IMG/VR virus record: IMGVR_UViG_3300009155_000239
Coordinates: 1 to 24,993 of that record
Strand: one strand, 5' to 3'
Source of the DNA: a virus
DNA length: 24,993 nucleotides
Part shown: positions 1,535 to 6,828 of the stretch, in pieces
How positions within the stretch are numbered: the stretch's first letter is position 1
Layout: every line of letters begins with the position of its first letter
Translations under genes and position numbers: made by a program
Notes under the pieces: model-generated
Databases searched by the model: none
Told to the model about the DNA's origin: nothing
Seen by the model: only the letters and a program-made list of their open reading frames with translations

Positions 1535-1725
1535 GCGTCTCCCTCAAACACATCTCGACCGAAAAGCTGATCGGTCTGTCGGAATACCTCGTCGAGCAAG
1601 ACTACGACGAGGGTCTGGACGTGCTGCTGGACGAGGTCTTGATCGTCCTTTTGTATCGCTTGCCTCTGGTGGCCTACCACCGTCAGGTGCATGAGATCGA
1701 AGCGCGTCGGAGGGCTCCGGCATGA
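1531..1725 (+). CDS. small early protein, GTG start, unknown function
   Basis: This is a 64-aa protein starting at GTG, which overlaps the previous TGA as GTGA. A hydrophobic helical centre (LDVLLDEVLIVLLYRLPLV, about 29-47) is flanked by acidic and basic residues. It could be an amphipathic helix or a weak membrane segment; the internal Asp, Glu and Arg argue against a simple transmembrane helix. The C-terminus is Arg-rich (EARRRAPA). The family is not recognised. Confidence 0.65.
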   Translation: MSVSLKHISTEKLIGLSEYLVEQDYDEGLDVLLDEVLIVLLYRLPLVAYHRQVHEIEARRRAPA

Positions 1726-2120
1726 GCATCTGCACCGTCCTCTCCCTGTGTGCCGCGTTGCAAGGATCGCCGTCCGTAGTCGATGGCGACACCCTGCGGT
1801 TCGGCAAACAATCCGTTCGCCTGTTCGGCATCGACGCAGAAGAGCGCGACGAGCCACATGGTCCACAGGCCACGGAGGGTCTTCGCCGGATCGTGTCGGC
1901 CACCGCCCACATCACCTGTCAGCCAACAGGCGACACCACGTACAACCGCGTGGTCGCCACCTGTTACACGGCTGAAGGCTGGGATGTGGCACAGCTACTG
2001 GTCTACCAAGGCCTCGTTTTGGACTGCGCCCGCTATTCCGGTGGACGCTACCGCAAATACGAACCATCAACAGCCCGCGCTACGCTGGCCCAGAAACCTT
2101 ATTGCAGGAGCAAAGCATGA
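1722..2120 (+). CDS. staphylococcal-nuclease-like (SNase) protein
   Basis: The SNase family (thermonuclease fold) contains Ca2+-dependent phosphodiesterases acting on DNA and RNA. This 132-aa protein shows the family signature in order: VVDGDTLRF (19-27), RLFGIDAEE (33-41) and YNRVVATCY (74-82), then a helix and GRYRKYE (109-114). Residues matching S. aureus nuclease Asp21, Arg35, Asp40, Glu43 and Arg87 are present (Asp23, Arg33, Asp38, Glu41, Arg76), so activity is plausible. It has a short hydrophobic N-terminus (1-16) without a basic residue, so it is not a convincing signal peptide. Four Cys (66, 81, 102, 128) would allow disulfides if it were exported. It overlaps both neighbours by 4 bp (ATGA). 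The role is open: host DNA breakdown, exclusion or nucleotide scavenging. Confidence 0.85.
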   Translation: MSICTVLSLCAALQGSPSVVDGDTLRFGKQSVRLFGIDAEERDEPHGPQATEGLRRIVSATAHITCQPTGDTTYNRVVATCYTAEGWDVAQLLVYQGLVLDCARYSGGRYRKYEPSTARATLAQKPYCRSKA

Positions 2121-4216: not shown

Positions 4217-4540
4217 ATGTTGCCGACCACTGAGCCAGTAAACTCGAACAAGGTGAGACACATTTTCGATTTCTATACCACTGCGTGTCACGGTTGGGTG
4301 TTTGTCCCATGGTCCGTGTTGCACGCTCTGTCGATAGACGCCTCGATGTTCTCGACCCAAAGCAACGCTGATGACAAGGGTGTGTACCTCGAAGAGGATT
4401 TTGATTTCCCCTTGTTTGAAGGGCTTTTCTTTAAAGCTACGAACGAGCGCATAGTTCTTCACGACATCCACGATGATGAGGGTGACGTGAGTGTGAAGCC
4501 GTCTATCAAGACGTACCTAAAGAAAGAGGAGAATGAATAA
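4217..4540 (+). CDS. early protein, unknown function
   Basis: This is a 107-aa protein of unrecognised family, starting at ATG 4217 one base after the previous stop, with GGAGGG upstream. It is aromatic-rich in the first half (IFDFYTTACHGWVFVPWSVLH) and acidic in the second (YLEEDFDFPLFEGLFF; IHDDEGD), with a basic-acidic tail (KKEENE). It has one Cys and no membrane segment. The stop shares its last base with the next start (TAATG). Confidence 0.7.
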   Translation: MLPTTEPVNSNKVRHIFDFYTTACHGWVFVPWSVLHALSIDASMFSTQSNADDKGVYLEEDFDFPLFEGLFFKATNERIVLHDIHDDEGDVSVKPSIKTYLKKEENE

Positions 4541-4941
4541 TGCATATCGAAACAGTCATTGCTAACCGCGAACAGACACACGGTATCTATCGTGAACAGG
4601 CCAAGCTGACGCAGACACTGAAGCTGCTGCTGCGCGAGACCCGCAACTGGAACCGCCTCGACCACTACCAAGCGCAGTCTCTGGAAGAGTTCTGCACGAA
4701 GATTTCGCGCATTCTGAACGGCGACTTCAACGAAATCGATCACTGGCGCGACATCTCTGGCTACGCCAGCCTCGTCATCCATGAGCTGGAAGGTCAGACA
4801 GGCGGGGCAAAGGAGCCGGAGGTTCCGTTCGCCAAGCTTCCCGTCTCGATCCGTCCTCAGGAAAACGACGACCCGTTGAACGCGCCGGAGTTTTTGCTGA
4901 AGAAGATGGAAGACGACATCGAGCAGCTTCTGAAGAAGTGA
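4540..4941 (+). CDS. conserved-type phage protein resembling DUF6378
   Basis: This is a 133-aa helical protein. Residues 49-80 contain the block KISRILNGDFNEIDHWRDI followed by GYASLV. This arrangement (K-x-x-R-x-L-N-G-D...D-x-W-x-D-I-x-G-Y) is typical of phage proteins grouped around DUF6378, whose all-alpha fold recalls MazG-like NTP pyrophosphohydrolases. I see no clear ExxE/ExxD metal motif, so enzymatic activity is not claimed. A Pro-rich linker (about 88-110) leads to an acidic helix and KK at the end. GAGGAG precedes the start. It is the last gene before the 74-bp gap holding the hairpins. Confidence 0.65.
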   Translation: MHIETVIANREQTHGIYREQAKLTQTLKLLLRETRNWNRLDHYQAQSLEEFCTKISRILNGDFNEIDHWRDISGYASLVIHELEGQTGGAKEPEVPFAKLPVSIRPQENDDPLNAPEFLLKKMEDDIEQLLKK

Positions 4942-4946
4942 CCTGT

Positions 4947-4990
4947 CATTAAAGAGTAGTGGGGTTTCCCTTTAATGGGCAGCCCCACTA
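4947..4990 (+). promoter_or_regulatory. overlapping inverted repeats, alternative RNA hairpins
   Basis: In the largest gap inside the operon, CATTAAAG (4947-4954) pairs perfectly with CTTTAATG (4970-4977). TAGTGGGGTT (4957-4966) pairs with AGCCCCACTA (4981-4990), with one G-U pair. The second hairpin extends inward by CCC/GGG (4968-4970 with 4977-4979) to a 6-nt loop. The two stems interleave, so they are mutually exclusive or pseudoknotted. There is no T-run, so it is not a standard terminator. It lies 25 bp before the next gene's ATG, so it may be a leader structure or an RNase site. Confidence 0.6.
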
Positions 4991-5015
4991 GAAAGGTTTA
5001 CGTCAGGAGAAGGAC

Positions 5016-5249
5016 ATGTCCCACCTAGAGCGGCGTGAGGAGTCCCCAGTAGATATGCGTAAGCCCTTTCGTACCGTGCTCACTATCGGTCGATTGGAGT
5101 GCAGATGGGTGACAGATTATGTCACATTAGCGGGTCTCCACATCTTTTGTGGTCACCCTGTGGAGAGATCAGACAGGCCTTATTGTAAGGACCACTATGG
5201 CCTCGTCTACGTCAAGCGGAGCAGCAGAAGATATGACGAGCTTGTTTGA
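5016..5249 (+). CDS. GcrA C-terminal-like zinc protein
   Basis: This is a 77-aa protein. Residues 19-66 match the C-terminal zinc motif of GcrA, the alphaproteobacterial cell-cycle regulator: LECRW (28-32), FCGHP (44-48), RPYCKDHYGLVYV (54-66). Likely zinc ligands are Cys29, Cys45, Cys57 and His60. The GcrA N-terminal DNA-binding domain (about 45 residues) is missing; only about 18 residues with basic and acidic character precede the motif. In Caulobacter the GcrA C-terminal part contacts sigma70, so this could act on host RNA polymerase; that is inference. AGGAGAAGG precedes the ATG. It follows the hairpin region and overlaps the next gene by 17 bp. Confidence 0.7.
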   Translation: MSHLERREESPVDMRKPFRTVLTIGRLECRWVTDYVTLAGLHIFCGHPVERSDRPYCKDHYGLVYVKRSSRRYDELV

Positions 5250-5523
5250 TTTTATACACCTCGGAGAGGTTGAGTTCTCCGGCCCCAGCGTGTCCTTCTT
5301 TGGCGACGTCTACGTCTACTACAATACGGTGGACGAGTGGTCGATGAAGGAGTTCCAAGGTGTCCTGACCAACCACGGGGATCGGTATCGTGGGAGGTGG
5401 ACCCAAGGTCCGCAGTTCGAGGAACTCAAGCGCCTGTTCTTGGCCGATAAAACGCTGAGGGCAGCGGCCATAGACGCGATCCATAAACGACTGAACATCT
5501 ATGAGGAGAAGAAAGATGGTTGA
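5233..5523 (+). CDS. early protein, unknown function
   Basis: This is a 96-aa protein from ATG 5233 (GGAGCAGCAGAAG upstream); the in-frame start at 5149 would overlap the GcrA-like gene too far. It is beta-rich in the N-terminal half (EVEFSGPSVSFFGDVYVYYN), then helical, with FEELKRLFLADKTLRAAAID and a charged tail (EEKKDG). The family is not recognised. It overlaps the next gene by 8 bp. Confidence 0.7.
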   Translation: MTSLFDFIHLGEVEFSGPSVSFFGDVYVYYNTVDEWSMKEFQGVLTNHGDRYRGRWTQGPQFEELKRLFLADKTLRAAAIDAIHKRLNIYEEKKDG

Positions 5524-5746
5524 TGTTACCGACAATCTGATCAACGACATTCAAGATTATTTTCAAGACAAAGAGCCTCCCTACATGAAGAAGATGCCTC
5601 GTCTTCATCCGGACAATCTTTTGCACCGCGCGTTGTTGAAAATCGAAGACATGCAGTTGGAGATCGATGAACAACGCAGCGAAATCAAGGACTTGGAATA
5701 CGAGATCCTTGACTTGGAGGCCTTTCACATAGAGGAAAAAGATTGA
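5516..5746 (+). CDS. small coiled-coil protein, unknown function
   Basis: This is a 76-aa protein starting at ATG 5516 with GAGGAGAAG upstream. Residues 30-70 form a strongly acidic coiled coil (ALLKIEDMQLEIDEQ; SEIKDLEYEILDLEAFHIEE). The first 30 residues are more mixed, with MKKMPRLHPDN. It closes the coupled part of the operon; the following gene has its own promoter, which begins right at this gene's stop codon. Confidence 0.7.
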   Translation: MVDVTDNLINDIQDYFQDKEPPYMKKMPRLHPDNLLHRALLKIEDMQLEIDEQRSEIKDLEYEILDLEAFHIEEKD

Positions 5747-5776: not shown

Positions 5777-6073
5777 ATGACTGAGAGTGAGCAACTCATT
5801 GAGATCAAACGGGTTTTGGGTTTGCCGACGCAATTGGCCAAGCTTCTCCAACTTCTTTTGGCGAAGGGCATTGTGCGTAAGGATGACCTGTCTGATTTGA
5901 TCTCGACCTATTGCGGGACGCGGCAATACCACAATGCTGATCGCATGGTGGTCTATCGGCTGCGCTCCCGCTTGCTCAAGCAAGGCTACGTTGTGCACTC
6001 GCAATACGGCGAGGGCTATTACTTGGCTCCGTCAGACAAGGCTTTGATCACGGGTCGCCTGATTCCGAGATAA
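5777..6073 (+). CDS. winged-helix DNA-binding protein, likely autoregulator
   Basis: This is a 98-aa protein resembling the C-terminal DNA-binding domain of OmpR/PhoB-type regulators, without a receiver domain. It shows LPTQLAKLLQLLLAKGIVRK (16-35), a helix-turn-helix entry, then VVYRLRSRLLKQGYVV (58-73) as the recognition helix region and YGEGYYL (77-83) as the wing hairpin. The family binds direct or inverted DNA repeats. A perfect inverted repeat lies across its own promoter, and the mRNA appears leaderless. It ends the rightward operon; its last 26 bp overlap the convergent gene at 6048-6323. I infer that it controls the early operon or its own level. It could alternatively be an activator. 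Confidence 0.75.
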   Translation: MTESEQLIEIKRVLGLPTQLAKLLQLLLAKGIVRKDDLSDLISTYCGTRQYHNADRMVVYRLRSRLLKQGYVVHSQYGEGYYLAPSDKALITGRLIPR

Positions 6074-6323
6074 GGTGATACTTGAACCGCTCTAGCAGCC
6101 AGACGACTTCTGCGCTGTCTTCTATCGACGTGGCGAAGTATTCCATCTCGTCCTTCTCGTCCGTGTAGCCGAGCAGGATGACCCCAGACAGCTTTCCAAG
6201 GGCCTCTTGGAGGACTTCGTCAGCTCGGCCGCTTGTCTCATCCTCAGGCTGTGGTTTTTGAGGGAGTTTTAGCTTTACGACGTTTTGCTTTTGGTCCTGT
6301 GGAGGTTTGCTTTCGTCGGCCAT
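6048..6323 (-). CDS. conserved-type small phage protein downstream of polA
   Basis: This is a 91-aa protein. The ATG at 6323 (MADESKPP) is preferred to an upstream in-frame start at 6428, which lies well inside the HNH gene; the only ribosome-binding signal is GCGGGGTG. A disordered charged N-terminus (1-40) is followed by GVILLGYTDEKDEMEYFATS (46-65) and a helix AEVVWLLERFKYHLI. This LLGY...FATS...LLE arrangement is one I know from small phage proteins next to replication genes; its function is unknown. It overlaps the HNH gene by 80 bp at its 5' end and the regulator gene by 26 bp at its 3' end. Confidence 0.7.
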   Translation of the reverse strand: MADESKPPQDQKQNVVKLKLPQKPQPEDETSGRADEVLQEALGKLSGVILLGYTDEKDEMEYFATSIEDSAEVVWLLERFKYHLISESGDP

Positions 6324-6828
6324 ATCGAACACCCCGCTTCTTTGAGACAGCTCTACACAACTCGACAAAATCCTTTTCCGAGAGTTCCATTTTAGCCCTG
6401 TTGGCGGAGGCACACACAAGTTGAACATTATCTAGGTTGTAACCCAAGCTTGAATCTATCCGGTCAAGGGAGGCATTTGTCTGAACCCGCCCGTTGTTTC
6501 TACGAGTGGTCATTGGCCAACCCGTCAAAGCACATATGCCTTTCTGCTTAAGCCAAAGGTCTAGTAAGGCCTCCTTCAGAAAAGAAACCTTCTTTCGGTA
6601 AGTGGCTTTCAGATAGATGTGGTTGAGGTAAGAATTTAAAGGCGCATCAAAAGGCGTGCCTTTTTTGAGAGCCCAAGCATCTCGCCGAGACTTCTGGAAA
6701 CAGGGTCGGCACTTAGAGCTTAAACGGATGCCGCTTTTGAGGGAACGGTCAGAGTACAAATAAAAGTGACTGACAGGAAACACGCCCAAGCAGGTGGTGC
6801 ATTTTCTGTTTTTGCCACTGGATTGCAT
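6244..6828 (-). CDS. HNH endonuclease with N-terminal zinc finger (homing type)
   Basis: This is a 194-aa protein. Residues 10-43 form a CxxC...CxxC zinc ribbon (Cys10, 13, 40, 43). The HNH core lies at about 99-158: CALTGWPM (99-106), ASLDRIDSSLGYNLDNVQLV (119-138), then NRAKMELSEKDF. In this subfamily DR replaces the usual DH of the first motif, which is common among phage HNH enzymes. The C-terminal 35 residues are Lys/Arg-rich, probably for DNA contact. It sits directly after polA and runs into the next gene. Its DNA looks more AT-rich than its neighbours. All of this fits a mobile homing endonuclease inserted between replication genes. Confidence 0.85.
   Translation of the reverse strand: MQSSGKNRKCTTCLGVFPVSHFYLYSDRSLKSGIRLSSKCRPCFQKSRRDAWALKKGTPFDAPLNSYLNHIYLKATYRKKVSFLKEALLDLWLKQKGICALTGWPMTTRRNNGRVQTNASLDRIDSSLGYNLDNVQLVCASANRAKMELSEKDFVELCRAVSKKRGVRYGRRKQTSTGPKAKRRKAKTPSKTTA

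Follow-up and report, generated by a model that had tools for sequence, protein, structure and literature searches.

A conserved phage family of stand-alone GcrA-like sigma-interacting domains, candidate ligands of host sigma70 domain 2

Introduction

The helix-turn-helix (HTH) domain of GcrA reads N6-methyl-adenine GANTC sites, GANTC being the CcrM site. Phages carry whole GcrA, presumably pushing the host into S phase. Residues 108–173 of Caulobacter GcrA form a self-standing sigma-interacting domain (SID), which has been crystallized with its target, sigma domain 2; hence, a lone SID can bind (PMC7403470). What might a phage do with this half of GcrA alone? The question is raised by a virus record from IMG/VR (IMGVR_UViG_3300009155_000239, positions 1 to 24,993; this whole stretch of 24,993 nucleotides is referred to below as the window). 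A preliminary description of its open reading frame at 5016–5249 had noted a CRW...FCG...YCxxH pattern, assigned it to the C-terminal region of GcrA, and proposed that the protein is a stand-alone domain lacking the N-terminal DNA-binding part, which might compete with host GcrA or redirect sigma70-RNA polymerase and so hijack an alphaproteobacterial cell-cycle circuit. We examined whether this is a real gene, whether its product is a SID, how widely it is conserved, and what it may do to host transcription.

Results

The open reading frame is a real gene encoding an isolated GcrA-like domain

The gene and its translation signal are:

5016–5249, plus strand: SID gene, coding sequence of 77 aa for a stand-alone GcrA-like sigma-interacting domain; SID core at residues 19–72
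5005–5009, plus strand: Shine-Dalgarno sequence AGGAG, 6 bases 5' of the SID gene ATG, assigned from the sequence

The open reading frame is a real gene. It has a strong Shine-Dalgarno sequence, and its dN/dS against diverged relatives (loci L003, L004, L005, and L009) is 0.13–0.30; purifying selection is acting on it.

We compared the product with protein families and structures. It matched the Pfam GcrA family (PF07750) at the C-terminal end only (profile positions 91–152 of 155, E = 5.3e–5), with a score of 24.1 bits that falls a little short of the gathering cut-off of 26.9. Besides GcrA, the Pfam scan returned zf-primase alone, as a weak match (E up to 1). PF07750 was matched by 12 of the 12 sequences in the SID family alignment (best E = 5e–9). 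Searched against PDB with phmmer, the protein found GcrA chains only, 5YIX_B (E = 0.0015) and 7YE1_G (E = 0.006), aligned over the SID. Its AlphaFold model is of medium confidence (pLDDT 69). When this model was compared with 350,542 PDB chains by Foldseek, the top three were the GcrA-SID chains 5yix_B, 7ye2_G, and 7ye1_G (probabilities 0.94, 0.54, and 0.51, respectively), the best E-value being just 0.13. Judged by sequence and predicted fold, the Caulobacter GcrA SID is singled out in PDB and nothing else is credible. The assignment to GcrA made in the preliminary description is thus confirmed. A chance motif is ruled out by the Pfam and PDB matches, the conservation of the family, and dN/dS.

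A Cys-Cys-Cys-His set (C29, C45, C57, and H60), putatively metal-binding, is invariant in the 12 sequences and, together with the W and Y positions, is common to the stand-alone and most full-length forms of GcrA. The stand-alone clade retains an aromatic residue two places past the first Cys and a Tyr past the His, and most of it has a TV(L/M)T-like segment ahead of the first Cys. Outside the Cys/His core the family diverges fast, and its C-terminus is basic. The window protein and its close relatives carry CRWVTD where canonical GcrA has C[KR]WPIGDP, a substitution that might change the sigma contact or remove it altogether.

The DNA-binding half of GcrA is absent

The open reading frame begins just ahead of the SID and does not contain the N-terminal HTH, which occupies residues 1–45 of GcrA. 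In the close relatives L001 and L002, the frame is closed by a stop no more than 8 codons ahead of the SID start. A search for a second PF07750 match in the window and related records found none; this search was weak and missed the SID itself too. A frameshifted or truncated full-length gcrA is ruled out, because the DNA upstream is occupied by a leader RNA and by a conserved gene unrelated to gcrA. The absence of the DNA-binding domain is thus borne out by the in-frame stop and by the separate conserved open reading frame upstream. Since the window protein has no HTH, it is unlikely to activate m6A-GANTC promoters by itself.

A covarying leader RNA accompanies the SID gene

The leader comprises:

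4958–4996, plus strand: leader RNA element, a putative H-type pseudoknot between the DUF6378-like gene and the SID gene, 5' of the Shine-Dalgarno sequence
4958–4964 with 4983–4989, plus strand: leader helix 1, AGTGGGG/CCCCACT
4969–4975 with 4990–4996, plus strand: leader helix 2, in which the loop pairs with the stretch 5' of the Shine-Dalgarno sequence; 5 of 7 pairs are standard in the window

The element was noted in the window and in L001–L005 and L009–L011. Both helices show compensatory changes: helix 1 reads AGCGGGG/CCCCGCT in L004, and CG, UA, and GC are all seen at one pair of helix 2. Across 7 distinct leader sequences, 88.7% of cells pair, with both-sided changes in 7 cells. None of 500 shuffles reached the observed value, and slid registers gave 36–56%. 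An extended simple hairpin (z-score –4.4) competes with helix 2. Strong copies of the covariance model occur solely upstream of SID genes, and a pattern scan of viral contigs likewise found the complete element solely before the SID gene. A known riboswitch was rejected as its identity, as no Rfam family matches. We infer that the leader controls translation of the SID gene.

Stand-alone SIDs form a phage family

Scans of IMG/VR revealed eleven viral loci that encode evident homologues of the window SID, the most diverged being about 40% identical (L001–L005, L009–L013, and L051); all are stand-alone, 71–94 aa long. A genome collection supplied one further stand-alone relative, L045: the first genome scan for host chromosomal copies found none, and the second found this single phage-like contig in a Verrucomicrobia MAG (CAINWP010000097.1). 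A distant, solitary stand-alone SID is encoded at L017:4884-5114, on a 114 kb contig from another type of phage. The stand-alone phage domain proposed in the preliminary description therefore belongs to a conserved phage family and is not a broken gene. The SID-only form was not found among sequenced phage isolates, where the GcrA-like proteins examined are all 169–235 aa long. We found no report of a SID-only phage protein in the literature searched, most subscription journals lying outside its coverage. Full-length phage GcrA is already known.

One related locus, L053:4689-5192, encodes a full-length GcrA-like phage protein (43 bits, PF07750 profile positions 6–147 of 155) whose SID resembles those of the stand-alone clade. 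Its gene sits behind homologues of the clade neighbours, the DUF6378-like gene and gene X, which suggests that the stand-alone form probably derives from a phage full-length gcrA via loss of the HTH. A tree built on the short SID region places L053 next to L012, L013, L045, and L051 (98/96), inside the stand-alone clade and on a long branch; this tree does not fix the direction of change, nor does it imply a single HTH loss. Searches for relatives of the full-length L053 protein and of the distant L017 SID (the latter in IMG/VR) each found just the query itself.

The SID gene lies in an operon of small genes

The neighbours of the SID gene are:

4540–4941, plus strand: DUF6378-like/phrog_17775 protein, 133 aa, upstream of the SID gene; a conserved, separate open reading frame, also in L053
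5233–5523, plus strand: gene Y, 96 aa, start inferred; overlaps the SID stop; conserved downstream neighbour of unassigned function
5516–5746, plus strand: gene Z, small conserved protein, start inferred; function unassigned
5777–6073, plus strand: gene T, 98 aa, last gene of the operon; weakly, a possible OmpR/PhoB-type winged helix without receiver

In its motif YRLRSRL...QYGEGYYL, gene T bears a faint resemblance to OmpR/PhoB winged helices. Matches to Trans_reg_C were seen in 3 of 10 family members (E = 0.003–0.016, below the cut-off), and none in the window copy. The AF2 model of the proposed winged helix has a pLDDT of 60, and Foldseek found nothing. An hhalign comparison with OmpR-type domains, using a profile of two sequences only, scored no better than controls. 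With sub-threshold Trans_reg_C matches only and no support from AF2, Foldseek, or hhalign, a CtrA-like winged helix is at most a tentative reading of gene T.

Seven sister loci encode a protein consisting of DnaA domain IV only (PF08299, E about 1e–12 to 1e–18), two or three genes 5' of the SID gene in the same operon; the window phage gave no PF08299 match. The genes are:

L045:4214-4681, L051:408-866, L013:1199-1699, L009:3370-3987, and also in L010–L012: DnaA-domain-IV-only gene

Other genes were noted in passing. Gene Y seems tandemly duplicated in the L001 contig (G001; 30777–31067 and 31060–31386) compared with the window. The window gene at 6244–6828 (minus strand) is HNH/endonuclease VII-like and has weak PHROG matches named "Srd anti-sigma factor" and "decoy of host sigma70", names that probably reflect a shared endonuclease-like region. 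At 1722–2120 (plus strand), in a small-gene region, the window encodes a staphylococcal-nuclease-like protein (PF00565, E = 4e–6), also seen by eye in L045.

Phage type and host

The phage DNA polymerase shares 52–59% identity with those of HTVC023P-type phages, a group with two members that infect Pelagibacter; the SID is absent from these pelagiphages. GC content is 54%. GANTC, the CcrM site, is depleted two- to four-fold across the window, L004, L009, and L010 (observed versus Markov expectation: 32 versus 62 in the window, 6 versus 26 in L004, 9 versus 24 in L009). This is consistent with a CcrM-bearing host and is no proof of one. In annotated plasmids, every GcrA-SID match is alphaproteobacterial. 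Plasmid matches, polymerase likeness, and GANTC depletion are thus indirect pointers to an alphaproteobacterial host. L045 counts against such a host, as it is syntenic with window-type phages though binned in a Verrucomicrobia MAG, where no other match to the SID alignment was found; this phage-like contig may be mis-binned, or its binning may hint at the host.

A T7-type RNA polymerase was not found in the records by a search that did detect T7 itself as positive control, nor was an N6-adenine methylase found. Since no phage RNA polymerase was found, the phages probably rely on the host holoenzyme. The records are possibly incomplete and could therefore miss an RNA polymerase or a separate DNA-binding partner.

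Discussion

Proposed function

The phage lineage keeps an isolated SID in a small-gene operon, in the slot of a related phage's full-length GcrA-like protein. Like the Caulobacter SID, the phage protein most likely engages the RNA polymerase holoenzyme by contacting domain 2 of the host's housekeeping sigma factor. Because it cannot read N6-methyl-adenine GANTC, the sigma site would be uncoupled from methylation. Host GcrA would be displaced and GcrA-dependent S-phase genes shut down, and the polymerase may perhaps remain activated, as if by GcrA, and serve phage promoters in that state. Overall, we suggest that the window protein binds host sigma70 domain 2, thereby displacing GcrA and/or serving as a methylation-blind sigma cofactor, with a probability of roughly 55% by our analysis.

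The protein could act purely as a dominant-negative that does nothing except block the GcrA site on sigma70 and so stop host GcrA-dependent transcription. A docking domain kept while the DNA-binding domain is lost is the classical dominant-negative layout. However, phiCbK-like phages follow the opposite strategy and keep full-length GcrA (PMC3556154), and divergence at CxWPIGDP could weaken competition. We regard a purely blocking role as possible, though less likely than the reading above.

Somewhat doubtful is a methylation-independent sigma activator like Crl or RbpA, which would stabilize the holoenzyme or open complex and be steered to phage promoters by another protein of the operon that binds DNA (the gene T product or, in sister phages, DnaA domain IV). 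The failure to find a phage RNA polymerase fits this proposal, as do the DnaA-domain-IV proteins that seven sister loci encode within the SID operon and the place of GcrA among sigma2-binding activators (PMC7403470). Yet the window phage has no DnaA-domain-IV gene, support for DNA binding by the gene T product is weak, and any interaction with a partner is putative.

It is quite unlikely, in our estimate, that the protein is a SID-derived small zinc protein that no longer binds sigma and has taken on a different role, for example by binding its own leader RNA or some other protein of phage or host. The fast divergence outside the Cys/His core, the basic C-terminus, the lost PIGDP stretch, and the covarying leader beside the gene would all suit such repurposing, but the PDB matches are still to GcrA only and most of the clade retains the TV(L/M)T segment.

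A wider scheme is speculative, and we give it low odds: alphaproteobacterial cell-cycle regulators would be taken apart and encoded as separate small proteins of one operon, namely the half of GcrA that contacts sigma, domain IV of DnaA (in sister phages), and perhaps a winged helix of OmpR/CtrA type. Together these would make up a split transcription switch that is blind to methylation, with the new pseudoknot leader tuning the translation of its SID part.

Finally, a degenerate remnant of a phage gcrA gene, which the full-length relative in the same slot (L053) might bring to mind, is already contradicted by dN/dS and by the start, Shine-Dalgarno sequence, and leader conserved across diverged phages, and is extremely improbable.

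A conserved SID-only family would separate sigma contact from the reading of methylated DNA. The SID-only protein could therefore be a natural reagent for asking what each half of GcrA does.

Comparison with known systems

The window protein shares with Caulobacter vibrioides GcrA (PF07750; 5YIX, 7YE1, 7YE2) the SID pattern TVLT(I/L)G...C(R/K)W...FCG...PYC..H....Y. It differs in length (77 versus 173 aa), in lacking the m6A-GANTC-reading HTH and the linker, and in having CRWVTD in place of CxWPIGDP. GcrA is also known from phages: phiCbK encodes a homologue (gp222, Gill et al. 2012) proposed as a GcrA mimic (PMC3556154), GcrA is listed in Agrobacterium phage Atu_ph08 (PMC6630229), and phage GcrA has been discussed as a means of speeding the cell cycle (PMC9437464). 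Others occur in Rhizobium phage RHph_X2_24, Synechococcus phage Ssp-JY42, Brevundimonas phage Bajun, and Manatee Spring podovirus MW202485. The phiCbK homologue and these others are phage-encoded and of the same SID family; those examined have a long N-terminal region, whereas the window protein lacks the domain that recognizes methylated promoters. Closer in layout are gp049 of Caulobacter phage RW and its allies, which by eye have a SID-like Cys/His module and no evident GcrA HTH. In contrast to the window protein, gp049 (L008:459-1022, annotated as hypothetical) has 187 aa and another N-terminal region, and its tblastn E-value is 5.

Among small sigma ligands, AsiA, gp39, and P7 of phages target sigma domain 4, and the bacterial Crl and RbpA target sigma2. 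The window SID protein had no match to any of these in the Pfam scan; what it would share with them is the re-tuning of the host holoenzyme by a small sigma ligand (PMC7403470). If the sigma-ligand reading is true, a site on sigma domain 2 would be added to the phage takeover of host RNA polymerase, in which the well-known phage sigma ligands use domain 4.
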